This document shows, piece by piece, positions 23,609 through 59,395 of a DNA stretch of 64,000 bases. Source of the DNA: Lactobacillus sp. W8174 (lineage in GTDB: Bacteria; Bacillota; Bacilli; Lactobacillales; Lactobacillaceae); the NCBI RefSeq assembly GCF_016100975.1, contig NZ_JACFRN010000001.1, positions 496,001 to 560,000 of the forward strand, in the 5' to 3' direction. The stretch's first letter is position 1, and the number at the start of each line of letters is the position of its first letter. The position numbers were made by a program, and so were the translations under genes. A model generated the notes under the pieces. That model saw nothing but the letters and a program-made list of their open reading frames with translations, did no database searches and had not been told where the DNA came from.

Positions 23609-23642
23609 TATTAGTCCTTTCTTGTTATTTAAGCACATCCAT

Positions 23643-36000: not shown

Positions 36001-38044
36001 TGACAATGTTTTTTATTTCAGGGTCATTTTTAATCTCATCTAACTGCTCTTGCGATAAAGTTTTGTTCCCATCCAGCATCTCAATCGTGTTTATAGTAAT
36101 ACCGGTATTAGTTTTCTGCATTTGCAAAACATGGAATGGTGGTAAGGTAAAAGCTTTACCCGTACTGTTTTGTAGTTGTTGTCGCACATTGGTAATCGTG
36201 ATCTTGTTATTACCGATAACGCTTGTATTAGTATTTTTGTTATTGTGGGCATCCAAAACAAATGATGTCGGGTTATTAACTTTGAATGTTCCTCCAGAGA
36301 CATCAAGCAAAGTAATGTTTCCAGAACCAGCATTATCTCCCAATCGAATATTAAAGCTACCGTTCTCAACGTCAGCTGTCCCCGTAACATAAACTAAGGT
36401 ACCTGAATAATCACCCATGTCATTTCCCAAAATGTTCATTTCACCATTGGGATTAATAGTCAAATTGCCATTGTCAAAAAATAAATTATTGGTATCGCTA
36501 TCACTGATATTACCATTAGTTTTTATGTTAACTTGACCATTTTGCATAACGTTAAATGTTGAACTAGCATCATTCAAATATACCGCTCTTGATCTGGCAC
36601 CATTCCTCGTGTCTTTATAAGGCATGACTGTGTTATCACCAATGTTAATATTTAAGACGCCGGCAACCTGTATAGTTCCTGCGCCTTCCATATAGATGGC
36701 ACTGTAAGGGAAACCATATTCACCGGTGGTAGCATTGCCATCATATGTTTGAGCAGGAATAAGATTTACTGTGGCGCCTCTATGAATTTTAAGAGTGTTG
36801 CCATTACTTTTCATTTCAATTATGGTTCCGCCATATGTTGAACCAGTAAATTCGCCATCCAGGAAGTCAATACTATTATTTTTTGTGTTTCTAAATTCAA
36901 ACAGCTGTTGCTGATTATTATATGCGTTTGATGTCTTAATATTTTGACAATCATTATTACCCGTGAAGTAAATATGGGTATTATCACCAGAATATATTAA
37001 TTGTGTACCTCTAAAAGTGCAATTGTTAAAAACTATATTAGTATGAAAAGAACCACTTACATATAGTGTATCCCAAACACCGTAAAAGTCGTTACTCTTG
37101 ATATTTATATTTTGAAAAGTAACATTTGCGTTTGTTCCAGCCGTTTGTATAGGTGCATATCCAGTAAAATTCAAAGTATACTTGTTATTAGCATCAGATC
37201 TAATTAATAAATCACGTCCCGGAACGCTAAATGTAGTGTTCCAAATACCTGAAGCTGCACTAATATCATTCATTAAAACAATTTCAGTAATTTTTTGATT
37301 ATACAGTGCATTTTGGAAATCTTGCCAGCTACTTACTTTATATGATATTCCATTACCAGCATCTTTTACTATTGGAATTTTATCATTTGCAACCGCTGTT
37401 TTATCTATATCACCATTTTGTCCGCCCTCAGAACTGGCATCATTATCAGGTTTATCAACACTACTCTGTGAATCTTCTGGCAACTTACTATCACTTGAAA
37501 CATTATTTCCAGCCGTAATATTAGAAACAGTGTCTTTACTAATTGAGTCATTTTTTTCTGGGGCTGTCACGCTTGAATCATTTGCATCAGTTTCCGGTTG
37601 TTCAACAGGATTGGCTTGACCAGCGTCTTTAACATCTTTCTTTTCCTGATCTTTTGCAGTTTCCGTTTTGGTTACACTTTTTGAGGCCTGATCATTACTC
37701 TTCAAAAATGAAGTTAAACCGGAAAAAGTGGACAATTTTGGTTCTTTTTCTGTCCTCTCAGTTTGATTATCAACTTTATTAGATTTAAGTGTAGTTTCTT
37801 CTTTATTATCTGTCGCAGTTGTCTTCAAATCAGATTCGTTTGATTTGGTTTCAACTTTAGACTCTAAATTTTGAGCAGGAGTATCAGTATCGGCCTTTAC
37901 TGTCTGGCTGCTTAAACCAAGAAAAGTGAAGCCGAGCAAAACAGAAGCAGCACCGATTGTCAATTTTCGAATTGAGAAACGGTCTTGCTTTGCCTGCAAC
38001 TCCATTTTTCTTAATCTCTCTTTATAGTTATTTTTACCTAACAT
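24059..38044 (-). CDS. Giant surface protein 2: beta-helix head, 16-repeat DUF1542-like stalk, SLAP anchor (4661 aa)
   Basis: One uninterrupted 14-kb gene for a protein of roughly 500 kDa. Order: YSIRK-like signal (1-52); disordered Asp/Ser/Thr/Lys segment with LSTFSGLTSFLK at 104-115; a beta-helix, pectate-lyase-like adhesive head (about 245-640, short strands rich in N, T, G, V, I); a beta module with PANPSGFLDID near 730; a helical stalk from about 890, including 16 copies of a ~165-residue DUF1542-like unit; a conserved pre-anchor module with HKDGTDYT; and four SLAP repeats in the last 264 residues (HNAYxY each time). No LPXTG. ATG 38044 follows AAGGAAGGAT. Predicted to project the head far from the wall; ligand unknown. 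The intact frame through so many repeats argues for selection. Confidence 0.92.
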   Translation of the reverse strand: MLGKNNYKERLRKMELQAKQDRFSIRKLTIGAASVLLGFTFLGLSSQTVKADTDTPAQNLESKVETKSNESDLKTTATDNKEETTLKSNKVDNQTERTEKEPKLSTFSGLTSFLKSNDQASKSVTKTETAKDQEKKDVKDAGQANPVEQPETDANDSSVTAPEKNDSISKDTVSNITAGNNVSSDSKLPEDSQSSVDKPDNDASSEGGQNGDIDKTAVANDKIPIVKDAGNGISYKVSSWQDFQNALYNQKITEIVLMNDISAASGIWNTTFSVPGRDLLIRSDANNKYTLNFTGYAPIQTAGTNANVTFQNINIKSNDFYGVWDTLYVSGSFHTNIVFNNCTFRGTQLIYSGDNTHIYFTGNNDCQNIKTSNAYNNQQQLFEFRNTKNNSIDFLDGEFTGSTYGGTIIEMKSNGNTLKIHRGATVNLIPAQTYDGNATTGEYGFPYSAIYMEGAGTIQVAGVLNINIGDNTVMPYKDTRNGARSRAVYLNDASSTFNVMQNGQVNIKTNGNISDSDTNNLFFDNGNLTINPNGEMNILGNDMGDYSGTLVYVTGTADVENGSFNIRLGDNAGSGNITLLDVSGGTFKVNNPTSFVLDAHNNKNTNTSVIGNNKITITNVRQQLQNSTGKAFTLPPFHVLQMQKTNTGITINTIEMLDGNKTLSQEQLDEIKNDPEIKNIVNDKSFVSFLTAAEAAVKNPETSTLDNIVKNALESALSSKDTSSYNNIAFVPANPSGFLDIDEDGLQVIKNDDGSRTITGKVSNYSEEVDGPSNVNAFYKYFPKGTKGYVIVKYISSNPNYDKQILQDENLKPYVNTTDTYRGSIEDNISKLPNVFSSEINPDGTFAVTIPADVTLNMKKGDKVEIIPDANFVEYSPTLIDAGARPVQKSLDILTLSEAQDDAATTIRNAVKDAESKKPTNLKESQSKTFEDDLAKALAMADSVTETNKDTTVYGADTIAEVNRRKETALDLVKKALQIANEESDEQNKLAAAKEAAKQALDNELNGNGTSGMPGVVNQIADLANSGLTQDNVKIYQDQAQKAYDAAKKAIDDCESFDEITKEQGKSVANIDQALTDAKAQQVIDKAASDLKTAKENALKELGAEQANVEDYIANLKNISTDAKAALNKEVEDYYQDAADKVNNPTPSSLEQVDIEKNIGIRKIDSVWNKATAFDKEIVSDQKKLDDYAQAAADRINKTDMSDEDKQKAVNDINKARDDAKINVGKQLTAENADKAADDGENAIKAVEDNANAANIEAIKTSNTANLNAAADSAIERVNKAYNSLTEAGQQQRADADKAAAITAINQAKDAATETINSATTKDAIINAFNAAKDKFDNAATTAEVAFAKIAAVDAVKKEADSVKPNLSATDQQTVDGIVATANSDFQKATTVDKVNSIKDQAIKDIDNVKTTADVVKQTEIKANKDTQTANIDAAATAAKKRVSDAYQKLSANNQTSCQQSLQTALDDIDQAANSAKSNIQNAQNVADIIAAAGTGTQAIAAIETKAEVTFAQADAKEAIANEAAKIKPGLSTADQQTVDGIVTAANGKIDAATDVSTINNIKNQAIRDIDQVKTTADSSAKEKVDKAKELNKTSIDGAAQAAIARVDAAYNSLTTAEKAANKGTHDQAVADIKNAQTAAEAKIAAATTETEVAAAASEGTTNINKLADAAELTFVKITANDAVQAEAAKVKPNLKETADQNKVDEIVSQAKDDIGAAENVDNVNRIKENAIKAIDNVKSNAEQTIQKAQELSKASVDAQADAAKKRVKDAYDKLTSDEQKTTAVQTAYNAANNAIDKAKTIAETAIAAAQSNSEITTAVDNANKAFTQAASDAELAFAKVAAIDAVQDEADNVKQGLKQTADLNKVDSIVSRAQTDLNNADSVTKVDFIKDQAIKDIDNVKAAADAAIDNSQTVNKANIDKAAADATQRVQNAYNELSAPEKEQAKSEYNKALSDINEAKNTADAAIQAAKTVDDATSAATTGISAVNDIANRAELSFAKLGAKVAVKAAADAVINGLDNEKKQKVQEIVTTANSNIDSATTITDVVRFRDQAINDINGVKAVADAVKEAQLNENKKNNTANVNEAAAAAKKRVDDAYNKLNDSQKNANHQTYQNAYDAIDNAATSANNQIALAQSSDQISEIVNTAKAQFDNAATKAEVAFAKITAVADISNEANKVKQDLKADSDKNRVDNIATTATTSINSTNTDTVAKVTSIRDQAIKDIDAVRAEANGGEQASLEETKNNRTSDVNKAAANAKTRVDTAYAQLTPAEQDATKQAYNDALAAIENTRLKANSDIASAETKDAVSDIAATAEQELDQEATKAEVAFAKTAAKDAIQAEEQSTIADLKGQDDKTSVQNIANNAIAEIDQNSTDTVAKVNSIKDSAISAIKAVKNTANAVDQAIVDETRKDSSENINEAAETAKKRVEAAYSKLTETEQAVAKQAHDDALSAIASEQKAANDAISSLNSKAEITQAATEGINKINAAATEAEVAFAKVAAKDAVHEKAKSIIDQLNKTDDKKQVQAISDQADKDIDGVAADTVDKVNSIRDKAISDISNVKATADDNEQKELEKTKENNKTSVDDLVTAAKKRVQDAYDKLGKDEKVLAASDYSKAMDAITQAQATANDAISAATNADAIVKAVGTASTALDTAATTAEVAFARVTAKTAIQAEADKVKKGLKQEVDQTKVDNIVLRAENDLAAAVSVDNVNTIAAQAIKDIDAVKDTAEENEQKDFAKVKDDTKQSIDQAAAAAKQRINDAYNSLSANGQSATKTDYDKAIQAITNAQAAAKDAIEKATDRDAVSKAAGDADQAFTQAETDAKLAFAKAAAKEAVQNEANTVKSSLSKDTDKKKVDAISEQADTAIDAAADITTVNKLRDKAISDIDAVKATAIAVDQATVDQAKDNGKSNVNGAAADAKKRVENAYNNLNSDQKNDNYQAYQNALTAIDNAADAANIQIGQAQTADEVNGLVDNAKTKFNDIATQAEVAFAKVIAKAAVQKEATKIKNDLKSQADKSKVDGIVNQANIQFNDSDTDTVQEVNSIRDKAIDDIDAVKDAANGNEQASLEETKNNQKSNVNSAADAAKARVEKAYGDLEKDQQQKTKQAHDDAITAIDNTLQKAIADIQNAETKDAAVAIAATADQKFDQEATKAEVAFAKVAAKDAVHKEAANAQSQLKNTDDKQKVQNISDQADTAFDDVATDTVDKVNSIKENAINAINAVTNTASAVDKALLDQARKDSTQNITNVAEAAKKQVDDAYEKLSSSQQAATKLDHDNAITAIENAKTAAIDAVNAATSKDAITSAANGGVNKINEAATTAEVAFAKTAAKDAVQAEAANVIKNLKDEKDQETVQKIADDAVTNIDNASTDTVQKVNDIRDQAINDIDKVKNTVDTAEQAKLEEAKDNSQASVDAAAAAATKRVEDAYNKLSSQQQTKTKADHDAAITAIKNAQKAANDAIAQAKDKSAVAGAVSTANTAFDQAATQAEVAFARVVAKDDVRNESDKIEKGLSLESDRTKVEGIVNEANTQLNTADTVQKINDIRDQAISNIDTVKTTADQTAATKLDNDKKAAIDALTNKQTEVKNGIDSLKNISDENKAALKDKVDRYYQDAVNKIKDAGTTTSDQVNNAKQEGIDNMGKVLDDVKSLDTAIANDQKKLDDHASAAIDKINKSDLSDADKGKAIESINKARDDAKETVASQPTVEKADAAEKVGESAIDTAEKTATDTDLGNSKLTEKTKVDAAADNAKKQLDDDYNKLTLDEQKEVKDKYDKAKADIDQAKADAEKAIDSATSKQDVNNASDKAKTDIDKAKNDAELAFAQAAAKDAVKAVAEDIKSALNRQEDKNKVDDLVTQANKEIDAATTIDSVNSTRDQAITAIKGIKNSADQSDKDNLAAIKSTNKTNVDQAATKAKNRVDEAYNKLDITQKATTQADYNKALAAIEDAKKAAETKIDSATNADAVAAAVDNASRQFDSAATTAELAFSKVAAKDEVNKAASTAKPSLSKDNQDRVDEIAKQASVDIDSAETVTNVDRIKQTAIDKINALKGNDEKDLAQAISNAKAELSKKHDDAVARLKDKFGKDADTTEVDKAFNTNKDITGTSVDEVKEHELAAERELAKGEVQDTGTNAKNKIDDLKHKDGTDYTQAEKDAIKNQIDKDIHEAIDKNGTIDQTSDSAGVDKARKDAIDKIIGETVPDSQEVNNIINQDKDVLSQRLAAAREAASKYLKDKKFGPDTDDSTIQQRYEDALAKLNAKPTDLATELEGEKLIAIGALADAQKAANKLVDGNSNYDSDAKKQIKEHIVKDYNEFLNSINACSSVSEVISAQRNLGIDQLKRDATESNVNVTNIIENGGSGQQVQPIAPAQPDKTDDKDKETDKKTEDSERVILMHNAYLYNSKGKRANGITLGAGSILDTYGIETINGEQYYVLVDKVADNKKYYVSVGNVKKTAKKLKHNAYIYNQYGKRVKKSGKLKSGKVIATYGSSVKIRGKKYFIIAKNRYVKAANVSSQNVPLKTATANQTAAVEAGDQSHIIINKKIMHNAYLYDQNGIRANGLVINAGSKVDVVSQKVVNKKLYYILEDGLYIAAGNIDAKKLKLKHNAYVYSKYGNRLGKKVLKKRKSIKTYGNPVKIKGKKYYTIKTSKFVKKANVKG
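25880..34270 (-). repeat. Tandem ~495-bp coding repeats (16 copies) in surface gene 2
   Basis: The protein block marked by a TxAEVAFAKxxAKDAV-like anchor occurs 16 times. The first fourteen anchors (about 34010 down to 27560) are evenly spaced at about 495 bp (about 165 residues). Between copies 14 and 15 there is an extra insert of roughly 0.5 kb encoding a DYAQ/HASAAIDKIN-type segment that also occurs near the start of the stalk and in the other paralogues. Copies are visibly diverged rather than identical, so this is an old expansion. Confidence 0.85.
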
Positions 38045-38079
38045 AAGTTATCCTTCCTTGAAAATTTAAATACATTCAA

Positions 38080-38108
38080 ATTTTATAACCATTGTTATTA
38101 ATTGTCAA
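38080..38108 (-). promoter_or_regulatory. Promoter of surface protein 2
   Basis: Minus-strand TTGACA (38108-38103), 17 bp, TAAAAT (38085-38080). The -10 lies 36 bp from the ATG. The -35 is preceded by TACTATA, as in gene 4. Confidence 0.85.
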
Positions 38109-38417
38109 TATAGTACATTAAGTACAATAATCAACTATAAATAACTGTTATTTAAATATCTATTATTTTCAAAAATAAATAACAAATATTCTATAAAATT
38201 ATCCGTTAAATGCAGTATTTTATAGCTATTTAATAAAAATAACTAAAAAGTGATGTATAGATTTATTTTTTTGATTTTTTATTTTTATTACATTTTATAT
38301 ACAAAATTTCGAATTTTATTTTTAATTTAAAATAACATAAAAATAATAAATTAGCTATAATTAATATATCTATTTTATATTTTTATGTTATGTTTAATTG
38401 GATTTATGCTGTGCAAA
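38109..38417. other. AT-rich intergenic spacer between surface genes 2 and 3
   Basis: About 310 bp of A/T-rich DNA with no credible gene, RNA or repeat that I can support. Confidence 0.65.
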
Positions 38418-38443
38418 AAGAAGCATCAATTATGATGCTTCTT
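38418..38443 (-). terminator. Terminator of surface protein 3
   Basis: A perfect 11-bp stem AAGAAGCATCA/TGATGCTTCTT with a 4-base loop; on the minus strand it runs into TTTTTGC. It lies 38 bp past the stop. Unlike the other four terminators it lacks the AAGTGCC-type arm. Confidence 0.88.
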
Positions 38444-38481
38444 TCATCTTATATGAATATATTGTATTTAAGCAAAGTGTA

Positions 38482-41400
38482 TTAGAAGTTTGCCTTCTTG
38501 ATAAACCTTCCTTTAGCTATAATAAAGTACTTTTTATGACCAATTTTAATAGGATTGCCATAAGTCTTAACAGCTTTATGTTTACGCAAAACTTTTTTAC
38601 CTAAACGATGACCATACTTATTGTATATATAGGCATTATGTTTCAGCTTTAATTTCTTGGCATCAATATTGCCGCTATTTACAAGCAATCCATCTGTTAA
38701 AACGTAATAGGTTTTACCGCTAATAGTTTTCTTAGCAACTGTTTCAATTTCTGAACCCAAGTTGATAATTAACTTGTTAGCACGCTTGCCATTTTCATCA
38801 TATAGATAAGCATTATGCATTAGTTTCTTAGTCGTAGTCTCAACAGTTTGAACTGCAGCATTAATAGTTGCTGCAGCAACTTCTTCACCCGCTGATCCCG
38901 TAGCAGTTACTAATTTTACATTTCCTGCTTTGACAAAGCGGTTCTTTGCAATAGTGAAATATCTTTTACCACGAATCTTAACGACTCCACCGAACGTATT
39001 AAGCAGCTGACCCTTCTTGTAAACGCCAGTCTTCTTAACCCGTTTACCTAGCTGGTTATAAATATATGCATTATGGACCACTTTTTGCTTGGTGGCCTGA
39101 CCATTTGTTGCAGCAACATAATACTTCTTGTTATTATCATGTGTGTCAACTAGTACATAGTATTCACGGCCTCCAATAGAAACTGTACCATAAGTAGTAA
39201 GGATTGAACCGGCACCGAGTGTAACTTTGTTAGCACGTTTGGCAGAATTATCATATAGATAAGCATTGTGCATTAAGGTCACATTAGTACTTTCGCCTAA
39301 ATCATTTGGCGCACCATTTGTTCCATTTTGTTTATCAGTTGATGGTTGATTAACAGGGTTAACAGGAATAGATGAAGTACTGCCATTACTATCAGAATTA
39401 GAATTGCTGCCATTGTTGTCAGAATTATTATTGGTATTGTTTCCGTTATTATTGCCATTATTATTGCTGTTGGCACTATCTTTAATAATCTTATCAATGA
39501 CAGTTGAATCTGATGAAGCCTTATTAATCGCTTCAATACCATCGTCACGCTTGCCGTCAATATCAGTTAAAGTATTATTTTGATTAATCTTTTCCTGAGC
39601 ATCAGCTAAAATGCGGTCGATTTCAGTCTTAATTGCAGCTTTTTCATCGTCAGTATAGTTATCACCGTTTTCATGCTTGACCCTGTTATTATCAATTTTC
39701 TTCTTAGCATTAGTAGCAGCATCTGAGACAGCAGCTTTGGCAATCTCCCGTATCCCAGTTATTCTATTATTCAGAACTTCATCATAAGAATTACCAGAGA
39801 TATCTTTATATTTGTCATGCTCACTATTAGTTGCATAAATCAATGCAGACTCACCAAAATATTTTTGGTTCTGGGCAACTGCACCTTTGTATTCAGCCTC
39901 AACATCCCTATTGGCAGAACTCTTAACTGCATATAATGCTTGCTGCATTAACTGATCAATTGCTTGCCTTGCCATGTCTATATCATGGTTCATCTGATTT
40001 GCAATATTCTCGTAAGATGCGTCAGCTTGAGCATCTTGAGTAAGCACACTATCTATACTTCCATGTATGCCATCAAGTCTATTTTTGAAATGATCTCTAT
40101 CCTGAGGAAGTAGACTATCTATATTGTTAAGCTTGTCCTTTGCCTTATTGAACAAATCATTAACTTTTTCTTTACCCATTAGCTCATTATAGGCATTGAT
40201 TCCATTGCTATACGCTTGAGATGTAGAGCCAATGTTGGTCGAATGCTTAATTGCATCAATTGCATCCTGGATAGCTTGAATGTTCCTTTGATAATCAGGA
40301 TTTGCTTTTTGTGCTTCAGTTAAGCCATTGTATCCAGCTTCCAGGCCTGTTATTTCATTTCCAGCACCCTTTAAGGCATTAGCTTGGTTATAATCAAACC
40401 ATTCAGAAGTATTTTGATAAGTATCAGTTAGCTTAGTACCAATTTGATTTTCGTCAGTCGGAATTTTATTGATATCAGTTTGCTGTTCTATGTCTGCTTT
40501 TTCAGTTGCATATAAATCATCAACTATCTTGTTTAATGCTTTCTTTTGATCAGCAGTTAGTTGAGATGACCCAATAATGTTGTGAGTTGTTGAATATTTT
40601 CTTTGTAAAATATCTTCTGCCTTTGCTTTGGCAGCAGCAAGATTAGTATCTTTTTCGACATCAGCAAAGCCAGGAATGTGACTGCCAGAATTGTTATCAG
40701 AATATCCTTGGGTTGCATTGTTAACAATCTGATCAACGTCTTTTTGGATGTCAGCAGTAGAACGATCATTTCCATTCTTATCTGTTGTCGGAACTGCGTT
40801 AATCTTTGCCTTGCTTTGATCGTAAATATCTTGAAGCCTCTGTTTTTGCTTTTGTAAATCAGAGTTTACTAAGCCAGAGCCTTCAAGTTTTTTATCAGCT
40901 TCTGCTTTTTGCTCAAGAAGATTATTAATAGCATTTTGCTTAATTTGATAGATTTCTTCTTTATTTTGGGCTGTTTGGTAAAGCTGGTCGATTCCAGTTT
41001 CACCTAAATTGGTTGAGTGTCCCTCGCTATCCAGACCCTTCTCAATGTTTTGCAATTTTTGTTTAGCATTTTCGAGATCCGTTGTTGTCGGACTGCTTGG
41101 TAAAGCAACTTTACTAATTTCATCCTTAGTCTTTTGAACCAACTGATTAAGTTGATCCTGTAAGTCAGCCTGTTGTTGATCAGTTAAATGACTTGCAACT
41201 TGACCAATACTGCCCTTATCTTTGACATACTTATCAATAGCAGCAATTTGTTTGTTCTTTTCACTTAGTAAATTGGCTGGAATACCTGCTTGATCTATAG
41301 CGGCCTCACCAGCTTTTTCAACTTGACTTAAGTTTGCATTATCATCAGCGCCATATAAGTCGCTAATGCCTTTTTGCATTGCGTCATTTATTGCAGCTTC

Positions 41401-44400
41401 ATTTTGACTTATTTCCGTTGGATCAAGTCCTGAACTTGGCAATTTTGTCTTAGCAGCTTCAGCATATTCTTTCAGAGTATTAATTTGTTTGTTCTTTTCT
41501 TCGAATCGCTGAGTTAAGCCAGTAATTGCATCATTACCAGCTTGTGCCGCTTGATTCATTGCACTATTGGCATCAGTTGCATTGTTTTGAGCAGCTTGAA
41601 TATTTTGAGCAGCTTTATCACGTTCTGACTTGATGCGATCTCTCATCTGATCTGCCAAACTAGGATTATCTTTAGCAATCTTATCTGCAGCTTCATTTGC
41701 TTTATTAACTGCGTCTTGCAACTTAGTCAATGCGTTATTGACAGATTCTGCCTTAACAATTTCATTATTAACTTTATTCAAATCAGCATCATTCTGACCT
41801 TTAGCATCAGACAATTGGTCCTGGCTGGTAGCAGAGTTAACTCTGGTTTCACCAGACTGACGAATTTGATCAATTTTATTCTTCAAATCATTATACTGGT
41901 CTTGACCTAATTTTTTATCGGCCAAATCTTGATCAATTTGCTGTTGTAATTTATTTGTTGAATTATCAAAATCATTTTTAGCAGATGTCTTAGCGTTAGT
42001 GAGGCTGGTATCCTTTGCTGTATCAACAATCGCTTCTATTGCTTTATTACCCTCATCTTGAGCCTTTTGCACATCATCTTGATTTTGAGCTTTATCAATA
42101 TTTTCTTTTGCTTTATCCCGCTCGCTTTCAATCGTAGATTTATCATTAGCGTCACTAGCAATTGAAGTTTGGGCTTTATCATCTAAGGCAGATTTTGCCT
42201 TATTTTTAGCCGCCTGCAGTTTAGCATCAGACAAGGCCTGGTAAATATTGCTTAGACCGGTATTCTTTTCTGTATCAATATTTTCAGATAGAGCGCCACT
42301 GACGCTTGAAACGGCATGATCATAAGCATCCTGTGCTTGCTGTTTAAACTTAGCTAGCTGATCAGGGTTTAGACCAGTTAAACCATTAATTTCTGGTAGA
42401 ACACCGGTATCAGTTGAGCCTTTTCCAAGAGCTTTATCAAGTTCTTTAATTGCTTGATCTCTTTGGTTACGGATATCGTCAGCATCACTCTTACTTGCAT
42501 TAGCAACTACGTTACTAATTCCCTGTAAGGTATTATTTTTGATTTTCTCAACTGTAGCGCTATCATTAGCCGCGCCAATATCTTTAATGCCTAAATCAGC
42601 CACTGCAAAAACCGCATTTTGGTCTCGTGAATCATTTAGTTTAGCTCGAGCCGCGTATGCTGTATTTTTAATCAAATCGGTGGCAACAACTTTATCACTA
42701 GCTAACTTGGCAGCAGATTCAATGTTATTAATTTTATTTAATGTATCTTGATAAATTCCAGTTAGTTGTTCTTTATTTGTGGCAGCGTCAATTTTACTAT
42801 TTGCATCCGTTGGGATTGACTCAAGCTGACTAATTGCATCATCAAATTGCTTTTTTACTTCATTTCTTTGGTCATTCGATAATTTGCTATAAATGTCACT
42901 TAAACGATTCTTGGCACTGCTTGCAGCATTGGCAATATTATTTTTAGTATCAGTTTTAGATGTATTAAAACCATTACCTGCAGCTTCTGCAGCATCAATA
43001 GCTGATTCGCCCTTTTTCTCAGCTATATTAGCATCAGAGACAGCATTTGTAGAATCAATTATTGATTTTGCATTATCGCGTGCAGATGTAATGTTATTAA
43101 TAGTTGTGGTCTTGGCATCATTAGTAATATCTGACGAACTATTAATTCGGTCAATCGCCTTTTGTGCATAATCATCAAGCTTTTGTTTATTAAGGATCTT
43201 ATTAACATTTACGTCACTAATCACATCATCAATTGATGACTTACCATTTTGGACAATTTTATTAAGTTGCTCATTGGTAGTAGTGCTTTTATCATTAATG
43301 CCATTAACACCAATATCATATGTAGCATCCACTTTTGCACGCAATTCATCTTTGTTGGCACTGGTAATCTGATCCATATTGCCAATTTGCTCTTTTACTT
43401 TATTGCGCTCATCCATTAGAGCTGTTAAAGCCTGGTCTTTTGCAGATTGCAAGTTCGCTGCAGCTTGAATGTTTGCTAAATCATTTTTACCTTTAGTTAA
43501 TGCTGCATCTATATCATCTTTACTTGCACCTTGAATGGCAGTTTGAGCCTGATTGAAGGCATTGGTAATCTGATTATAGTAGTCATTCTTTTCGGTTACT
43601 CCTAAATTAGGATCATTAGTAATCTGACTGCTTGCAGAATCACGCGCATCTTTTAATTTTCCAATTGCAGTTTGACGCTGTTGTTCTAAGGCCTGAGCTT
43701 CGAGATCAGGAGAAAGGGAATTAATAACAGAATTAATGGCATCAATTCCTGTTTGAGCATCAGTGTTAATATCAGTTACTGTATGGTCATTAGTGATCGC
43801 CTGGATTGCTTGATCATAACCTGCATCAATCTGATCCTGTTTTGCTTGAACTATTGCCGGATCAAGATGAGAATTTGCAAGAGTATTTTTGGCATTAGCC
43901 TTGGCCTGTTGCAGTTTGCTAATTGCCTGCGCCTTAGTGGCCGTGATTTGAGCAGCACCTAAATCTTTTAGAATATTGTTTTGACCATCTTGCTTAGCCG
44001 AAGTGATATCAGAAACATTTTGAGCTGAAGCAATTTTGGCCTTCGCAGCCTGGGCATCTTGATCAATTTGATCTTCATAATACTTCTTATTTGAAGGACT
44101 AAGTTGACTATCATCAATGCTTTCAATTTTAGCTTTTGCATCATTAACAGCTGTATCAACGTCTTGAGCTGCCTTGGTTCTAGCTTCTTCTACCTCTTTA
44201 TTGGCAGTCCCTTGTGCATCGCTTACAATATTATCTATACTGTTTTTAGCGTTAGTGACTGTCTCAGCGATTTTAGAACTATCGACTTTGTTTAAGGTAT
44301 CAATACTATCATTAACTACCTTGCTGATTTGATCATGATATGCTTTCTTTTGTTCAGTAGTCAGATTGTTGGTTTGATCGATTTGGTTATCAGCGTTTAC

Positions 44401-48654: not shown

Positions 48655-48688
48655 AATAATCCTTTCTCGAAATTATGATTACATATTA

Positions 48689-48717
48689 ATTGTAAGTCCT
48701 GTTATTTTTACTGTCAA
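48689..48717 (-). promoter_or_regulatory. Promoter of surface protein 3
   Basis: Minus-strand TTGACA (48717-48712), 17 bp, TACAAT (48694-48689). The -10 lies 35 bp before the ATG. Confidence 0.87.
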
Positions 48718-49117: not shown

Positions 49118-49149
49118 AAAAGAAGTGCCACAAATGTGACACTTCTTTT
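49118..49149 (-). terminator. Terminator of surface protein 4
   Basis: A 10-bp outer stem AAAAGAAGTG/CACTTCTTTT (49118-49127 with 49140-49149) continues as CAC/GTG inside a mismatch. On the minus strand the 3' arm ends in the T residues of the stem itself and a further TT. It carries the AAGTGCCACA arm also seen at 24001. Confidence 0.82.
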
Positions 49150-49186
49150 GTGATATTTAAGCTGTAAATTCTAGAGTTTTTAATAA

Positions 49187-52100: not shown

Positions 52101-55100
52101 TTGCCTTGCAGACCCTTCTTTACAGTTTCTGCATAGCCCTTTAACTTATTGATAGCGTCATTCTTAGCTTCATAACGGTCAGTTAAGCCAGTAATCGCTT
52201 TTACACCATCTTGTGCAGCCGTATTCATAGCATTATTAGGGTCTTGTGCATCATTTTTAGCATTTTGAATGATTTGAGCAGCTTTATCACGTTCAGATTT
52301 GATCTGTTCTCTCATTTGCTCAGCCAGATCTTTATTGTCCTTAGCAATTCCGTCTGCCGCAGCAGAAGCCTTATTGACGGCATCTTGCAGCTGAGTTAAA
52401 GCATTGGTCAATGATTCTTCTTTACCAATATCAGTACTGATATTATTGAGATCATTGTTGTTCTGACTCTGGGCACCAGTCAAACTATCCTTATCTTTGG
52501 CTGAGTTTATCCTGGTCTCACCATCTTTACGAGCCTGATCAATTTTTTCTTTTAAATCATCATATTGGTCTTGACCCAGTTTCTTATCAGCTAGGTCTTG
52601 ATCAATCTTTTGTTGTAGCTTGTCTGCAGCATTTTTCAGATCATTTTTTGCTGCAACTTTATCATTGGCAAGTTGAGTATCCTTGCCTGTCTGCTCAATA
52701 CCGTTAATAGCATTTTGGCCTTCATCTTTAGCTTTATTGACTTCATCGGTATTTTTAGCCTGATCAATTTTGTCTTTGGCTTTGTCACGCTCGTTATTGA
52801 TTGAATCCTTGTCGTTAGGATCATTTTTACCAGCATCAGATGCTGCTTGATCCAAATCTGATTTAGCCTTGTTTTTGGCAGCTTGCAGCTTAGCATCTGT
52901 CAATGCCTGATTAATGTTGACTAAGCCCGCATTCTTTTCGTTTTCAATTTGATCTTTAGACGCTCCGCTGACCTTAGCAACAGCACGATTATATGCGTCT
53001 ACAGCTTGTTTTGTGAAAGCAGTCTTTTGATCGTCAGTTAAATCATTCAGTCTATTAATTTGATCACGAACTCCAGCAAGATCGTCCTTCCCGTCTAAAG
53101 TATCCTTTAGCTCTTGCAGTGCTTCATCCCGTTGATTTCTAATCTGATCAGCTTGCTGAGAGGCAGCAATATCAAGAATGTTTTGTATGCTTTGAATAGT
53201 GTTGCCTTTGATCTTATTAACAGTTGCAATATCACTGGCAGCATTAATGTCATTTTGACCAAGATTCGTAACAGCTTTGACTGCGTCCTGATCTTTCTTA
53301 TTTGTTAATTGGGTATTTGCTTTAGTACTTGCTTCATTAATTGCAGTTATTGCGGCAGCTTTGGCAGCAGCTAAGTCTGCACCTGTTTCTGCCTTATTAA
53401 TAGCAGCTATTGCATCTTTAGTATAGCCATCTACCTGATCTTTATTAGTAGCCTTCTTAACGTTTGCAATTGCTGTGGTGGAAGCCTGCTGAATAGCATT
53501 GTTGGCCTGATCAAATACGTCCTTAACTTTTGCCTTATCATCATCGTTAAGTCCATTATAAATTCCTTGCAAACGTGAAGTGGCATTAGCTGCAGCAGTA
53601 GAAATTTGATCAATTGTGCTGTTCTTATATCCTTCAAGGCCATTGCCTTTGGCAGCAGCCGCGTCAATTGCCAGTTCACCATTTTGTTCTGCAAGATTAG
53701 AAGCTGGGATATCTTCTTGCTTATCGACCTTATCGACATTAGCCTTCGCCTCATCACGAGCAGCTTTAATTCCAGCAATAGTGGAATCCTTCACAGCTTG
53801 AGTAATATCGGTTGAGTTGCTAATGCGATCAATAGCTTTTTGAGCATAATCATCAAGTTTTTGCTTGTTAATAACTTTATTAATGTTTAAATCACTGATG
53901 ACATCATCAATAGCTGCTTTGCCTTGTTGAGCTGCTTGGGTAACTTGTTGGATAGAAGATGTACTTGCAGAGTTAATATTCTTGACTGCTTGATTGTATT
54001 GCTCGTCAACTTTAGCTCGTAAATCGTTCTTATTGGCACTTGTAACTTGATCCATATTGCCAATTTGCTCTCTAATTTTGCTTCTCTCAGTAAGCAAGTC
54101 ATTTAGAGCTTGATCCTTGGCAGATTGCAAGTTTGCAGCTTCCTGAATCTCAGTCAGTTTCCTAGTGCCATTGGTAAGAGCAGTATCAATATCGTCTTTG
54201 CCTGCTGCTTGAATAGCCGACTGAGCATTATTAAAGGCATTTGAGATTTGGTTATAGTAATCGTTCTTTTCGGTAACGCTTAAATTAGGATCAGTAGTTA
54301 TTTGGGTATTCGCATTATCGCGAGCTTCTTTTAGTTTATTAATAGCATCCTGACGCTGTTTTGCTAAAGCTTGTGTGGCTTCGTTATCCGAGATACTGTC
54401 AACTATACTTTGGATACTCTTTTTGCCTTTATCCGCATCATTATTAATATCTGAAACATTAAAGTCGCCCGTTACAGCCTGAACAGCTTGATCATAGGCA
54501 TTGTCAATCTGGTCTAATTTATCTACCCAGTCTTTGTCGTTAAGTGATTCTTTATCATGAGCGGTAGAAATGGTCTCTCTGGCTTCATTCTTAGCAGTTT
54601 GTAAATCAGATATTGCTTTGGCACGTGCTGCAGAAACCAGAGCATCGTTCAAGTCCCTGGTAATATTGTTTTCACCGTCCTGAACAACAGATTTGATACT
54701 GTCTTCATCTTGAGCTGCAGCAATCTTATCTTTAGCTGATTGTGCATCCTGATCAATCAAATCTTCATAGTGCTTTTTGTTTGATTGACTGAGTTGACTG
54801 TCAGGTATGCTTTCAATCTTAGCTTTAGCAGCCTTTGCTGCATCATCAACTGCTTGTGAAGCTTTTGCCCGTGCATCTTTGATCACACTGTTACCCTTAT
54901 TTTGGGCATCAGCGACTATACTGTCTATCTTTCCTTTGGCTGTTGTAACAGCATCATCAACCTTTGAAGGGTCAATGCTGTTTAAACCGTTAATACTGTC
55001 ATCTGCAACTTTTTTAATTTGGTTATGATATGAATCCTTTTCGGCGTCACTGAGATTTGTTATAGCATCAATAGCTTTATCAGCATCCTGTTGTTTCTGC

Positions 55101-58100
55101 CTAATCTGTGCGGCAGCATCAGTTAGTTGATTATTGCGTTTACCTAACTCTTGCTGCTTAGTCAACAGATTGTTAAGAGCTGTAATACCATCATTTCTGG
55201 CTCCGTCAATTGCTGCAAGTGAATCAGCTTGATCAACCTTCTGAGTATATCCCAGTGGATTAGTATTATTACTTAAAATCTTCTGAGCCTGCGTTTTAGC
55301 ATCATCAATATTCTGAGCAGTTAAACCAGGAATATTGCTGATTTGATTTTCAACATCTGCTTCAACATCGACTAACTTCTGCTTGGAGATTGCTTTAAGC
55401 ACATTCTTTTTAGCAGTATCCTCTGCAGTTGCAACTGCATTAGAGTCAGCAGAATTATCAATACTTGCCAAACCGTCACTAATTGCTTTGGCGATAGTGG
55501 TGGTTGAATTAACCGACAGACTATCCTCGATAGTAACAGCATATCCTGAAACTTCAGACTTAGCAGCAGCCTTATCAAAAGCAGTTTGCGTTGCTGCTAC
55601 TCTTTGATCGATACCTGTAACATCTGAGGTACCATAAATTGATTTATTAGCATCATAATTTGAATCACCCGGTTTGGCAGTAGCTACTTTAGCAGCATTA
55701 TCAATTGCATTTAAGTAAGCTACTTGATCTGCAGGAGCAAGACCAGAATTTTGGACTCTCTTCTTAGCTGCTGCAGCTGCCTTATTAATAGCGTCTGCTT
55801 CCTGATTTGCGTAAACTTGTTTGATTGCTTCTAGACCATTTGAACCGTCAGGATCGTCACCATTGATGACTTTATGTACGGCATCATTTAAAGAATCCTG
55901 AATATCAGTCGTTTTGTCACTATGCTTGGCAATTTCATCTTTGGCTGCTGCCTGTAATTTCTTAATTGCAGCGATAGTATTCTTAAGAGCGTCAATGGTA
56001 TCTTGAGCTTCTTTTTGGTGATTTTTGACTGAAGCTTCATTAGTATCTTTATCGATGTCACCTTGAGTAGCGACGATTGCATCCGGACGTTTCAACCTGT
56101 CAATTAAGCCATTGACTTCATCTTTTTCTGTATTATTCAGGTTAGCATCTTTAGCAAGGTCAGCTATATCAGATTTTACTTGACCGATTTGCTGGTTAAG
56201 ACCTGTTTTCACGGTGTTCTTATAGTCAAGACCAATCTTGTCAATTGCCTTTATTCCGTCATCCTTAGCTTTAGCAACATCAGTACTATTTTGTGCTGCC
56301 TTAACTTGGCTAATTGCACTATCCCTAGCGCCATTAATTGTCTGCGATTGTGAAGGATAGTATCCAGCTTGCTTGCTTGCTTCGTTATTCAGAGCATTGA
56401 TGGCACTAGTCCTATCAGTTTCAACTTGAGCCGAATTTTGTGCTGCTGTAATGGCATCATTAATAATCTTTAAAGCATCATTTTTGCGTTGATTTACTTT
56501 AGTAATTGAGTCTGCACTAGGGTCATAGACTGAAGTTGACTTGTTAGCACTATTAATGGTCTTGGAAGCAGCAGCAGCAGCCTGAGCCAGCGCATCATTA
56601 AATGCCTTATTCTGATCGGCGGTCAGATTATTTGGCTTATTCGTTTTAGCAGTATTAATTGCATCAGTAATTGCCTTAGCTGCTTGATCACGGACTTCAC
56701 TCAAGGTCAAAATATCCAAATTCTGTCTGACAGGTTTTGAAGTATCAGTTGGATCATAGCCAATGAAGTTAGCACTAGGTGATAATTCAATACCATAATT
56801 TTTATTAAATTTGACAGTTTGATCTGCCGGAATGGTAAAGGTAAATGAACCATCATTGTTGACCTCAGCAGCATACTGGGTTGGCAGCGGATTTAGTGAG
56901 CTATTCTTAGAGTCTCTATACGTATCATCAGTTGCAGCATAAGGATTGGGAACTCCATGATTCTTATCATCCTTATCTGGCCACGGAATTTTTTTGCCCT
57001 TATCGTCAATAATATTGGCGGCAATATAAGCTTTAGTAGCTACCGGCATAACCAAACTAAACGGATTCTTAATGTTTTTTGGATCGCCTTTAAGGTCATC
57101 TGGACCATCTGTATCAGGGTTATAACCTATTACGCTTCCTGCAGCACCTGTAATAGTATTTGATCCATCGTCATTTCTCTTGACAGTCACCTTGCTAGTG
57201 TCAATATCCAGAAAGCCACTTGGGTTGGCAGGAATAAAGGCAATATTGTTATAGCCAAAGTTCTTACTATTATTGAAAGCTCTTTGAATAATATCAATAA
57301 AGAGATCGTCAAAAGTTTTATTGCCCTTAGCAGTTTCAGTTAAAGATTCTTTCACATCGGTTGGTAATTTATCATAATCAATACCAGCATTCGTTACATT
57401 GGTTATTAATTCCTGTAATTTTTCATTATTTAGAGGCATTTTCCCATTCAGCAACTCAAGTTTGTCTACAAGAATGGTTCCTCCCCGTTTTTTTCTAACA
57501 TTTAAAACATGAAATGGCGGTAAAGTGACTTTGTCAATTCCAAGTCCCAAGCCAGTAAGATCAAATTGTTGCCGGACGTTAGTTATAGTAATGTTATTTG
57601 TACCAATAATACTGGTGTCAGGATTTTTGTTAGCCTGCGCATTCAGAATTAATGAAGTAGGGTTATTGACAATTAAGGTACCACCCTGAACGTCTACTAA
57701 TGTAATAGCTCCTTTTCCGGCACCCGTCCCGGCACCTTTTCCAGGACCTGCAGGTTTGGAATCGTCAAGACTGATGTTAAAAGCACCGTTTTCAATATCT
57801 GCTTTACCCTTAACTAAAACTAATGTTCCGCTATAGTCACCCATATCGTTACCAGTGACATTCAAGGTCCCTTTTGGTCTAATTGTGAAATTACCAGCAT
57901 CATAAATAAGGTTACCACTGTCTGCATCACTAATGTTACCGTTAGTAGTGACATTTACTGTACCATTAGTTCCAATATTAAAACTGGAGTCATTATCCTT
58001 TAAAAATATAGCCCTACATTTGTTGCTATTGCGACTACCTTGATATGGATGTGAAGTAGAGTTATCGCCCATAAAAATATTTATCGTACCCGAAACATCT

Positions 58101-59395
58101 ACTTTGCCCTTACCTTTAATGTAAATGACGGAGAATGGATACCAATGTTCACCATATGTTCGAGAAGCGTCATAATTTACAAGGGGCGTGAGATTAACAA
58201 CGGCACCTTGATCAACTTTAACAGAAACATTATCACCTGTCATTTCGATCATACTGCCACCATATGTTGAGCCATTAAATACACCATCTACAAATTCAAC
58301 GCTGCAATTTTTGCCATTGAACTCAAATAATTGTTGGTCGTTAGACTCAGTTGGTCCACCATTATAAGGTGTTTTAATCGTATTTATATGATTTGTACCA
58401 TAAAAGTAGATGTGAGTATTTGCTTGAGCATATATTAACTGTGAACCGTAATAATCAACATTTTTAAATCTAATATTGACATTAACATTTTGGGAACCTC
58501 CCGTTCCAGAAAGTCCATAAGTGGAAAGAACGCCCCAATAGTCTGCACTCCATAACTCTAAATTTTCATAAGTTATGTCTGTTGAATTTCTCTTATCACA
58601 ATCAGGATGATTCTGCTTAAAATCAATTTTATATTTTGTAGTTCCTGCGGATTTGATTAATAATTTCCTTCCCGGAACTGTAGCTAAAGTAGTATGCCAG
58701 CCATTACTGTCGGCAGAAATGTTATTCATGATATCGATTTCGCTGACGCTTGCATCACTATAAGCATTTTTTAGCTGTGTCCAATTTGTGACCTTTGCAA
58801 CTGTACCAGTAGTAGCATCCCTCTTAGCATCTTTATCGACTAATGTGGGAGTCTGAGAATCAGTTTTTCCAGCACTATTTGTTTTTGAATTATCCTGATC
58901 TGTTGCACCATCAGCTTTAGCTGGATCCTTTGTGGCACTTTGATCCTTATCAGGAGTCTTTGCATTGTTATCAGCAGTATTCTCCTTGTCTTTTTGACCA
59001 TCAGTCTTGGAATCAGTAGTTTTAGCTGTAGAATCCTTGGTAGAAGTGGTTGAATTTTCAGTATCCGTACTCTTTAAAAAAGAACTCAGACCGGAAAATG
59101 TACTTAAATTAGCATCTTCCTTCTTCGAACTCGTTTGTTTATTTGCGTTTGCAGAATCTGCTTTGTCTGCAGTCTGATCAGATTCAGTCTGGGACTTATT
59201 CGTTTCAGAACTAATTTCTTCCTTTGCAGGATCAATAGTGTCAGCCTTGGCAGTCTGGCTATTCAGGCCAAAGAATGTAAAACCAAGCAAAACAGAAGCA
59301 GCACCAATTGTCAATTTTCTAATTGAGAAGTGGTCCTGCTTTGCCTGCATTTCCATTTTACGAATTCTTTCCTTATTGTTGTTTTTACCTAACAT
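49187..59395 (-). CDS. Giant surface protein 4: beta-helix head, SEW-type helical stalk, SLAP anchor (3402 aa)
   Basis: Close paralogue of gene 3 with the same domain order. YSIRK-like signal 1-52; disordered, Thr/Lys/Asp-rich segment with LSTFSGLSSFLK at 97-108; beta-helix head about 198-615 (NNITITNVRQQF near its end); PANPSGFLDID module near 720; helical stalk from about 893 with the SSEWV segment near plus-strand 51070; Gly/Asn/Pro-rich linker; four SLAP repeats from about 3135. Each SLAP repeat begins HNAYxY, and the last ends KKANF. ATG 59395 follows GAGAAAGGAT. Non-covalent binding to wall polymers through SLAP repeats is known for S-layer proteins; adhesion by the head is inferred. 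Confidence 0.92.
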   Translation of the reverse strand: MLGKNNNKERIRKMEMQAKQDHFSIRKLTIGAASVLLGFTFFGLNSQTAKADTIDPAKEEISSETNKSQTESDQTADKADSANANKQTSSKKEDANLSTFSGLSSFLKSTDTENSTTSTKDSTAKTTDSKTDGQKDKENTADNNAKTPDKDQSATKDPAKADGATDQDNSKTNSAGKTDSQTPTLVDKDAKRDATTGTVAKVTNWTQLKNAYSDASVSEIDIMNNISADSNGWHTTLATVPGRKLLIKSAGTTKYKIDFKQNHPDCDKRNSTDITYENLELWSADYWGVLSTYGLSGTGGSQNVNVNIRFKNVDYYGSQLIYAQANTHIYFYGTNHINTIKTPYNGGPTESNDQQLFEFNGKNCSVEFVDGVFNGSTYGGSMIEMTGDNVSVKVDQGAVVNLTPLVNYDASRTYGEHWYPFSVIYIKGKGKVDVSGTINIFMGDNSTSHPYQGSRNSNKCRAIFLKDNDSSFNIGTNGTVNVTTNGNISDADSGNLIYDAGNFTIRPKGTLNVTGNDMGDYSGTLVLVKGKADIENGAFNISLDDSKPAGPGKGAGTGAGKGAITLVDVQGGTLIVNNPTSLILNAQANKNPDTSIIGTNNITITNVRQQFDLTGLGLGIDKVTLPPFHVLNVRKKRGGTILVDKLELLNGKMPLNNEKLQELITNVTNAGIDYDKLPTDVKESLTETAKGNKTFDDLFIDIIQRAFNNSKNFGYNNIAFIPANPSGFLDIDTSKVTVKRNDDGSNTITGAAGSVIGYNPDTDGPDDLKGDPKNIKNPFSLVMPVATKAYIAANIIDDKGKKIPWPDKDDKNHGVPNPYAATDDTYRDSKNSSLNPLPTQYAAEVNNDGSFTFTIPADQTVKFNKNYGIELSPSANFIGYDPTDTSKPVRQNLDILTLSEVRDQAAKAITDAINTAKTNKPNNLTADQNKAFNDALAQAAAAASKTINSANKSTSVYDPSADSITKVNQRKNDALKIINDAITAAQNSAQVETDRTSAINALNNEASKQAGYYPSQSQTINGARDSAISQVKAAQNSTDVAKAKDDGIKAIDKIGLDYKNTVKTGLNQQIGQVKSDIADLAKDANLNNTEKDEVNGLIDRLKRPDAIVATQGDIDKDTNEASVKNHQKEAQDTIDALKNTIAAIKKLQAAAKDEIAKHSDKTTDIQDSLNDAVHKVINGDDPDGSNGLEAIKQVYANQEADAINKAAAAAKKRVQNSGLAPADQVAYLNAIDNAAKVATAKPGDSNYDANKSIYGTSDVTGIDQRVAATQTAFDKAAAKSEVSGYAVTIEDSLSVNSTTTIAKAISDGLASIDNSADSNAVATAEDTAKKNVLKAISKQKLVDVEADVENQISNIPGLTAQNIDDAKTQAQKILSNNTNPLGYTQKVDQADSLAAIDGARNDGITALNNLLTKQQELGKRNNQLTDAAAQIRQKQQDADKAIDAITNLSDAEKDSYHNQIKKVADDSINGLNSIDPSKVDDAVTTAKGKIDSIVADAQNKGNSVIKDARAKASQAVDDAAKAAKAKIESIPDSQLSQSNKKHYEDLIDQDAQSAKDKIAAAQDEDSIKSVVQDGENNITRDLNDALVSAARAKAISDLQTAKNEARETISTAHDKESLNDKDWVDKLDQIDNAYDQAVQAVTGDFNVSDINNDADKGKKSIQSIVDSISDNEATQALAKQRQDAINKLKEARDNANTQITTDPNLSVTEKNDYYNQISNAFNNAQSAIQAAGKDDIDTALTNGTRKLTEIQEAANLQSAKDQALNDLLTERSKIREQIGNMDQVTSANKNDLRAKVDEQYNQAVKNINSASTSSIQQVTQAAQQGKAAIDDVISDLNINKVINKQKLDDYAQKAIDRISNSTDITQAVKDSTIAGIKAARDEAKANVDKVDKQEDIPASNLAEQNGELAIDAAAAKGNGLEGYKNSTIDQISTAAANATSRLQGIYNGLNDDDKAKVKDVFDQANNAIQQASTTAIANVKKATNKDQVDGYTKDAIAAINKAETGADLAAAKAAAITAINEASTKANTQLTNKKDQDAVKAVTNLGQNDINAASDIATVNKIKGNTIQSIQNILDIAASQQADQIRNQRDEALQELKDTLDGKDDLAGVRDQINRLNDLTDDQKTAFTKQAVDAYNRAVAKVSGASKDQIENEKNAGLVNINQALTDAKLQAAKNKAKSDLDQAASDAGKNDPNDKDSINNERDKAKDKIDQAKNTDEVNKAKDEGQNAINGIEQTGKDTQLANDKVAAKNDLKNAADKLQQKIDQDLADKKLGQDQYDDLKEKIDQARKDGETRINSAKDKDSLTGAQSQNNNDLNNISTDIGKEESLTNALTQLQDAVNKASAAADGIAKDNKDLAEQMREQIKSERDKAAQIIQNAKNDAQDPNNAMNTAAQDGVKAITGLTDRYEAKNDAINKLKGYAETVKKGLQGNNLDANEISQGESAINTALQNATSNIYGAKDTDNLDDIEGAGEKAIDQAKLPSDLLAEKNKQIAAIDDYVKNKGDISSVATNLTNDQKADLQKQLDQVVQNTKDKIGSVKLPDNPTQSDLEAAKKKLANIEQGVPENNEALNFGQAGVDNVYDVAKNRADIYQAKQDAIKQLQDIQDQANKKIEDSGLSGTDQEAERQKIKDIIDKSKTDVNNIPDKKDGKDRTADDVKQDAAAIVNKAKNGYKDPTTGEQMPGTSSVIDQAALAGAKTKAEGYLKEKQNQAHDIINKSQLTDSEKQEANQAIDDAYNTEKKNIEAITDLDTVPKDKDHVGTSIDKIWQNSSEWVVKDKQNATVGTNGLQSEYDKLTSDQRANSDYQDYIKDIIAGLADINKADNIPDISSAYNQGITALNKLKAKEEIKNAADKAKTEIINNKDIDSQTKLDLINNVNEHVKEGNEAIDQVNAPSDDPAGKKTNIDKAANTAKGDIQVEVNKAIDASKKKADQEVADKAIEAIDKIHKEFGDNADTSSIQNAFNKHKNTEGNSYDEIQKNKLEAEKEIAKGAVDDAAKNAKKDVDNNKGKHQDGSDLTNDEKQKIKDEIDHQKDNAKDKIDHAGSGDDIDKNRDNGIDVIHQDSSDPTTIDKVIHGGDNNGNGGNNENISNGGNTGGGSTVTPGPGNKPGTGSVDAGKDKPQNGDDVDLSDSSQVKLMHNAYLYDENGKRANQITLGVGSIVTVYGTQTINGKEYYVLVDQGAKNKKYFVATANVLATRQKLTHNAYIYNQFGKRVKKTGVYKKGQLLNTYGAVVKIRGKRYFTIGKNRFVKAANVKIVTSAKSANEEVAPTNTNTTEQPVVTVAKSLKHNAYLYDENGRRANKLIFNAGSVVETTGKKTINGQKYYALPDGLYIASGNIDAKKLKLKHNAYIYNKYGHRLGKKVLKKRKSVNTYGNPVKIGHKKYYTLSKGRFVKKANF

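Follow-up and report, generated by a model that had tools for sequence, protein, structure and literature searches.

Tandem giant genes and their shared N-terminal peptide

The window, the whole stretch of 64,000 nucleotides of Lactobacillus sp. W8174 DNA that was analysed, contains genes 1–4 and the C-terminal portion of a fifth paralog in tandem, all on the minus strand. Gene 4 (49187..59395; 3402 aa) encodes a YSIRK signal (59267..59341), a disordered linker bearing a short motif, a beta-helix head (residues 199-740; 57176..58801), a DUF1542-type stalk and C-terminal SLAP domains (PF03217; 49199..49813). The same architecture was recognized in gene 3 (38482..48654; 3390 aa) by Pfam and similarity, with a YSIRK signal at 48526..48600 and a head, similar to that of gene 4, at 46489..48102 (residues 185-722). 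It was also recognized in gene 2 (24059..38044; 4661 aa), which has its YSIRK signal at 37916..37990 and a head (residues 233-745; 35810..37348) recognized from its likeness to gene 4 (phmmer E 1.2e-128), its SLAP region being assigned by frame. The fifth paralog occupies 59885..64000 and belongs to a frame of 3529 aa that runs past the window, its motif copy lying outside. Gene 1 (19091..23638; 1515 aa) was described from its sequence and Pfam; it has a YSIRK signal (23480..23554), DUF1542 and SLAP. The original prediction that it lacks both head and motif is borne out, as Pfam gives YSIRK, DUF1542 and SlpA only and the sequence shows neither a head nor a motif copy.

Membership of the YSIRK-signal class is based on PF04650/TIGR01168 matches at the N-terminus (PF04650 for each of the four signals), and a C-terminal PF03217 domain was found by Pfam in genes 1, 3 and 4 and by frame in all six YSIRK frames of this genome. 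The pectate-lyase-like adhesive domain PF20585 gave no Pfam match for genes 3 and 4 (P0003 and P0004) at E 0.001. The AlphaFold2 model of the gene 4 head is a confident, mostly-strand solenoid, for which the best solved structure in Foldseek is the beta-solenoid binding region of the L. reuteri SRRP (5nxk, 5ny0; E 6.1e-5); identity is 14% and the TM scores only 0.24/0.50, and this match is uninformative on the motif. The ten neighbouring genes scanned in the window are housekeeping-like, one being without an assigned function, with no SecA2/SecY2/Asp gene among them, and Rfam gave no match within the window.

Genes 2–4 carry the 12-residue peptide LSTFSGL(T/S)SFLK in their N-terminal segments. 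Re-derived from the sequence, the copies are LSTFSGLTSFLK at residues 104-115 of gene 2 (37700..37735, minus strand; profile match E 6.8e-8) and LSTFSGLSSFLK at residues 98-109 of gene 3 (48328..48363, minus strand; E 1.7e-7) and residues 97-108 of gene 4 (59072..59107, minus strand; E 4.5e-7), in agreement with the residues originally predicted. Beyond the window, LSTFSGLSSFLK recurs in the fifth tandem gene and LATFSGLSSFLR is found in a sixth gene on a different contig of the same genome.

Form and conservation of the motif

The general form of the motif is L-x-T-[YF]-x-G-L-x-x-F-L-[KR]. A relaxed pattern matches 122 of 215 YSIRK N-termini (a non-random sample in which some genes are counted twice via different sources) against 0.01 expected after shuffling, with no match in the 100,295 residues farther downstream in the same set, and the motif is thus not due to chance. 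In a motif-anchored alignment of 67 of the 122 sequences, from which similar flanks had been removed, the information content is 4.2–6.1 bits at L1, [YF]4, L7, F10 and L11 and 2.4–3.7 bits at T3, G6 and [KR]12, whereas the flanks average 0.26 bits. In a de novo comparison of 12-mers, 1600 of 2701 pairs among 74 carriers share a 12-mer above the threshold and the most shared ones are the motif, versus 106 of 2485 pairs and no common 12-mer among 71 non-carriers.

Between paralog pairs of genes 2–4, synonymous differences affect 6, 6 and 7 of the 12 motif codons and non-synonymous ones 1, 1 and 0 (same order of pairs), so the motif is conserved as protein. The notion of an isolated short motif, selectively kept within a drifting linker at a fairly constant distance after the signal peptide and absent from headless gene 1, is supported. 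A relic without present function, inherited from an ancestral N-terminal module fused to many heads, would be in keeping with a motif limited to one part of the genus and with a signal and linker resembling a shared module. This nevertheless seems scarcely credible, given that the motif was kept as its flanks drifted down to background level, that synonymous changes pile up in it with hardly any non-synonymous ones, and that the residues retained are hydrophobic ones, whose loss would be expected if a polar linker were simply drifting. A processing site, at or after which a protease would cleave at [KR]12 and trim the N-terminus, appears unlikely. Position 12 is K or R in 91% of the 67 sequences, the next residue is D, S or E in roughly three quarters of them, and the distance from the signal is fairly constant, but single carriers replace K/R12 with S, A, N, M, H, T, Q or D, the strongest conservation lies at L1, Y/F4, L7, F10 and L11, the motif is long for a cleavage site, and there is no candidate protease.

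Seven segments without YSIRK were compared with Pfam-A/NCBIfam, and the five holding the motif gave no above-cut-off match over it; PavB_Nterm scored only 20 bits, its cut-off being 225. The motif profile matched PDB sequences only at E above 1, and a 24-residue tandem query gave no match, which shows only the weakness of a short single query. Text searches of the literature found no paper covering the motif and returned none on S-layer-associated N-terminal motifs; the metal-inducible-autocleavage (MIIA) literature, consulted because of a weak NCBIfam match elsewhere in one protein, had nothing on the motif among the entries listed.

Distribution across genomes, heads and anchors

The motif profile gave 132 matches, distributed over 25 of 75 Lactobacillus genomes; the other 50, of which 45 have YSIRK matches (379 in total), gave none. 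By valyl-tRNA synthetase identity, the motif genomes G053, G049 and G002 were not separable from motif-less genomes. Two family-level matches (E 0.004 and 0.008), in frames of only 33 and 77 aa, were taken as chance. Within the 25 motif genomes, 117 of 127 YSIRK frames carry the motif, nearly always 21–88 residues past the signal profile, with two second copies at 177–179. It is carried by all 74 frames with a beta-helix head of the genes 2–4 type and by 43 of the 53 without one; DUF285/leucine-rich-repeat heads occur in nine of the carriers among 20 proteins given to Pfam, and one genome (G053) has 25 motif frames with differing heads. The presence of the motif on different head types points to a common tag rather than a piece of one kind of head. 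Nor is the signal fixed: the carriers L260 and L266 have a confirmed KxYKxGKxW signal (PF19258/TIGR03715) in place of YSIRK, and L274 looks alike by eye. In the KxYKxGKxW carriers a DUF1542-like module precedes the motif, which lies far from the signal.

The motif is, in short, real and, in the motif genomes, shared by almost every headed YSIRK protein that was read, whatever the head. One headed protein, L194, lacks it, and another, L199, has only the variant LSQYSQLDAFLK. Six YSIRK frames judged headless, mostly by eye, lack the motif: gene 1 (P0001), L217, L224, L225, L227 and L228. In the motif genomes, co-occurrence holds for a head of some kind and is not confined to the beta-helix head.

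The carriers are giant adhesins, most of them apparently SLAP-anchored, from one part of the genus. Eight motif genomes contain 66 YSIRK frames no shorter than 300 aa; at least 36 of these carry SLAP and none carries LPXTG (PF00746), with no SLAP domain among the matches listed for the other 30. In 16 motif-less genomes, LPXTG is present on 55 of 87 such frames among the matches listed. The SLAP counts cover motif genomes only and a YSIRK protein with a SLAP-type anchor is cited for L. crispatus in the portion of the source consulted (PMC11181022); together with the 30 frames without a listed SLAP, this means that the link between motif and anchor type may reflect ancestry alone.

The anchor data also bear on surface docking, in which the motif would bind something outside the cell, whether the S-layer lattice, a component of the wall or the stalk of a neighbour, so that the N-terminal tips of C-terminally anchored fibres would be tied down or together. 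This is possible but doubtful. Frequent SLAP anchoring without LPXTG, the lack of the motif in frames judged headless, its expected place at the far tip adjoining the head, and the two copies in each L. acetotolerans protein, which would suit avidity, are all consistent with it; however, no partner was found, and gene 1 shares the stalk type and anchor but not the motif, such that the partner need not be the protein's own stalk or SLAP.

Structure predictions and the beta-helix head

The original prediction had also raised, as one option, contact between motif and beta-helix, with the motif capping the head of the chain it belongs to or docking there. All frames with that head in motif genomes carry the motif and gene 1 has neither, but most frames without it carry the motif too, several of them with leucine-rich-repeat heads, which is the very occurrence named beforehand as refuting contact, and the head profile has 35 matches across 21 genomes without a motif match. 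In an AlphaFold2 model from 27 sequences (low power), residues 1–142 of the segment are below pLDDT 50, and the two motif-holding blocks reach 37 and 34 (25–33 elsewhere), with a three-residue helix turn and no docking of the motif on the head. As a general role, own-head contact is refuted, and even in a restricted sense it is very improbable.

A likeness to the helix at the head start (V-x-[ST]-W-x-x-[LF]-x-x-A-[LY]), which shares spacing with the motif and might have suggested cap-helix mimicry, was judged not real: the motif profile ranks that helix first in only one of 46 proteins, and all 12 printed scores are negative. For an L. acetotolerans two-copy protein with a different head, the single-sequence model is poor (mean pLDDT 45.7) and was set aside; in it a helix of low confidence begins inside the second motif copy and none at the first. 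An amphipathic alpha-helix was not retained, as the hydrophobic moment at 100 degrees is reached by 11.7% of column permutations (not significant); that at 120 degrees, reached by 3.8%, is merely suggestive. This hydrophobic, partly periodic character could fit an adhesive or host-acting peptide, with direct binding of the motif to a host surface or membrane, although such an activity is improbable: the motif accompanies differing heads in G053 and occurs both in L. acetotolerans and in bee-gut species, which favours a common cell-side role.

Candidate roles and known systems

The export and arrangement of very large surface proteins with non-covalent anchors are poorly understood. The best explanation, advanced tentatively, is that the peptide is a short linear motif of headed adhesins, bound in trans by a putative common factor, most likely during biogenesis. 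Unfolded alone, the motif would be bound by one factor common to all carriers, probably through L1, Y4, L7, F10 and L11. The factor would meet the N-terminal segment as it comes out and might aid the head-first protein in export, in folding its head, often a solenoid, or in transfer to the wall, a step that would precede binding by the C-terminal SLAP domains.

A role in biogenesis is favoured by the independence of the motif from head and signal type, its lineage-wide occurrence, its position after the signal, the anchor counts, the 12-mer sharing among carriers, and its lack in YSIRK proteins judged headless. Against it, no partner has been found, the helix model is weak, the anchor link is perhaps one of ancestry, and headed L194 and L199 depart from the rule. 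Gene 1 does without the motif although it matches the others in signal, stalk type and anchor, so that neither YSIRK export nor SLAP anchoring in itself needs the motif; and the distance of the motif from the KxYKxGKxW signal implies that it is not strictly the first segment out. A bolder version, which we consider rather unlikely, is that the motif is a second address label beside the signal peptide, read by a putative export or assembly factor for headed, SLAP-anchored adhesins and replacing the sortase route of YSIRK proteins elsewhere in the genus.

The role proposed would resemble that of the accessory-Sec-transport (AST) segment behind the signal peptide of serine-rich-repeat adhesins, without being one. 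According to the portion of the source cited, the AST segment is required if targeting to the accessory Sec system is to be efficient and, like the motif, has an unusual signal peptide on one side and an adhesive head on the other (PMC6973325). It is, however, typically 30–40 residues long, rich in Ala/Ser/Thr and directly behind the signal peptide, whereas the motif has 12 residues with fixed hydrophobic positions, 21–88 residues after the signal profile; and AST proteins are LPXTG-anchored glycoproteins with their own SecA2/Y2 cluster, unlike the motif proteins, which are mostly YSIRK proteins with no LPXTG among those tested.

A motif common to 25 frames of one genome and to bee-gut symbionts offers a concrete handle, as a peptide bait for the partner, and the contrasts between 25 motif and 50 motif-less genomes, and between gene 1 and genes 2–5, could guide a comparative partner search. 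Among known giant proteins, Giant1 of Apilactobacillus kunkeei (Giant1-5), as far as the source was consulted, is described as combining a beta-solenoid head and a long helical rod with an N-terminus that is disordered, the C-terminal domains being different (DUF5776); the words 'motif', 'SLAP' and 'YSIRK' are absent from the main text (PMC12863079). The giant surface proteins of Firm-5 are of the same kind by description, with tandem genes, YSIRK, DUF1542, two SLAP domains and lengths of 1500–4600 aa, and neither head nor motif is described in the part of the source consulted (Ellegaard et al., 2015; PMC4449606). The motif itself occurs beyond Firm-5.

Conservation of the motif in a disordered linker

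The four complete giant YSIRK surface-protein genes of the window all lie on the minus strand. As first noted, a 12-residue peptide in the linker behind the signal was found at residues 104–115, 98–109 and 97–108 of genes 2, 3 and 4, respectively (LSTFSGLTSFLK in gene 2, LSTFSGLSSFLK in genes 3 and 4), and gene 1 has neither this motif nor the head, its signal, DUF1542 stalk and SLAP domains being present. The motif also occurs in the fifth tandem giant paralog (59885–64000 and beyond), a frame of 3529 aa cut by the window end, of which the listed 1078-aa ORF is the C-terminal part only, and in a sixth gene on another contig. Five of the six YSIRK proteins of this genome thus carry it, and a search of the genome with a motif profile yielded no other convincing copy (two leftover matches, E 0.4 and 1). 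When the three window genes are compared, synonymous changes affect 6–7 of the 12 codons of the motif and non-synonymous changes no more than one, so the peptide itself is under selection and is not a recent DNA copy.

An alignment of 67 motif-anchored sequences revealed strong constraint at L1, T3, [YF]4, G6, L7, F10, L11 and [KR]12 and low constraint elsewhere, with lesser-constrained positions (-3, -1, 8, 9 and 13) at 1.1–1.5 bits. In an unguided comparison of the linkers of 74 carriers, the motif was the most shared 12-mer (1600 of 2701 pairs above threshold); the linkers of 71 non-carriers had no common 12-mer, with 106 of 2485 pairs passing and every top window recurring in two others. 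The eight constrained positions, the low flanks and the unguided comparison bear out the earlier view of an isolated, conserved short motif. In an AlphaFold2 model, the flanks are disordered and the motif only slightly less so; the window's head is modelled with confidence, mostly as strands of a solenoid, and its best match among solved structures is the binding region of the L. reuteri SRRP. Conservation amid a drifting, disordered linker is characteristic of short linear motifs, and the peptide, judging from alignment and model, would fold, if at all, upon a partner. No Pfam or NCBIfam model spans the motif in the segments tested, and ten peptide strings of it are absent from the open-licence PubMed Central papers searched. 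Proteins of this kind in Firm-5 have been described as combining YSIRK and DUF1542 with two SLAP domains, in a section that mentions neither the motif nor the head (Ellegaard et al., 2015).

Distribution, signals and anchors

The motif profile, built from 56 motif peptides and applied at E 0.01 or better, gave 132 matches, all of them within 25 of the 75 Lactobacillus genomes. The other 50 had no match; 45 of these together hold 379 YSIRK matches. Across a family-wide sample (397 genomes, 40 genera), it matched in only five Lactobacillus genomes and in two marginal cases that are probably due to chance. YSIRK frames are present in 23 motif genomes (G075 and G002, whose matches coincide, being counted as one), and 117 of these 127 frames have a profile match. 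Most of the matches (119/132) lie behind a YSIRK signal, at 21–179 residues (median 51; all except two at no more than 88).

Of the other 13, five were read for their signals, the remaining eight lying in G074 (six), G064 (one) and G032 (one). Three proteins have a KxYKxGKxW-like signal, confirmed by Pfam and NCBIfam in L260 and L266 and recognized by eye in L274, and two further matches are in one protein with a partly readable start, beginning like YSIRK. Genome G074 lacks any YSIRK match; its six motif matches lie within frames of 2102–5044 aa. In the giant proteins L260 and L266, a DUF1542-like helical module sits between signal and motif.

Named genomes were also scanned with an alignment of four N-termini; the patterns were drawn from the signal peptide only, so the hits were not selected by the motif. 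Of 38 loci obtained, 36 have an N-terminus longer than 90 residues, those of L041 and L044 being interrupted after residues 85 and 48, respectively; a relaxed motif pattern matched in 34 of the 36. L043 is a relative of the headless gene 1. Named carriers are the bee-gut species L. kullabergensis, L. helsingborgensis, L. kimbladii, L. laiwuensis, L. huangpiensis, L. apis and L. bombicola, together with L. acetotolerans; L. melliventris, also a bee-gut species, has a variant with one deviating position (L017, LTAFSGLSSFLR), and several Lactobacillus isolates are carriers too.

Anchor domains were assigned to YSIRK frames by frame length, the SLAP search covering motif genomes. In eight of these, none of the 66 YSIRK frames of at least 300 aa has an LPXTG anchor and, among the matches listed, at least 36 have a SLAP domain; in 16 motif-less genomes, LPXTG was found in 55 of 87 such frames among the matches listed. 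Teichoic acid binding has been described for the SlpA domain (PMC11181022). Eight LPXTG matches without YSIRK signals are clustered on contig C8 of the W8174 genome (3445–31973), apart from the SLAP-anchored giants.

Motif, head type and possible role

An L. acetotolerans protein with two motif copies and leucine-rich-repeat units visible in its sequence prompted the retrieval of 190 regions, the N-termini of which were read. In this species, L040/L251, L259 and one further protein have two copies about 90–95 residues apart. In genome G053, 25 of 27 YSIRK proteins match the motif pattern, with a variant in one more (L199), although that genome yielded a single match to the window's head. A Pfam head search (E 0.001) of 20 hand-chosen proteins, including three that lack the strict motif (L194, L199 and L217), identified DUF285/LRR heads in nine carriers (L123, L185, L187, L191, L200, L193, L202, L214 and L218), pectate-lyase-like domains in a further three (L212, L220 and L230), and no head in L117, L092, L196, L203 and L210.

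When frames of the motif genomes were paired by genome and frame length, the motif was present in 74 of 74 YSIRK frames with the window's head type and in 43 of 53 without it (Fisher's test, p 9e-5, overstated because the proteins are related). The ten motif-less frames are gene 1 and four relatives (in G029, G030 and, twice, G063), the headless L217, L229 (glycosidase-like by eye), L194, which has a pectate-lyase-like domain but no motif, L199 and one fragment. The motif-less genomes hold 35 head-profile matches, in 21 of them. These 35 matches and the 43 carriers lacking the window's head speak against the contact to the beta-helix that had been proposed; the motif accompanies a head of some kind in the motif-bearing lineage, not the beta-helix specifically.

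Since proteins judged to have no head lack the motif, its role probably concerns the head end of the fibre rather than the stalk or anchor. The motif follows two signal types and precedes several head folds. This diversity accords poorly with a role bound to a host ligand, to a single head or to a single signal peptide, and a factor common to all these proteins is favoured. From the observed distribution and conservation we infer binding, a partner and a stage of action: our first choice, held tentatively, is a biogenesis factor acting in export, head folding and wall transfer, in the course of which one factor would meet all motif-bearing proteins. A partner acting outside the cell, at the S-layer or between fibres, would fit as well but is the less likely alternative.

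Two irregular gene forms were also observed. L208, a 156-aa ORF in G053, has no head and comprises only a YSIRK-like signal, polar linker and the motif; either the gene is truncated or its product is a small secreted protein. Some giant genes of G041 and G017 are each interrupted, giving two successive frames (172 and 1384 aa; 572 and 2990 aa), through either decay or assembly error.
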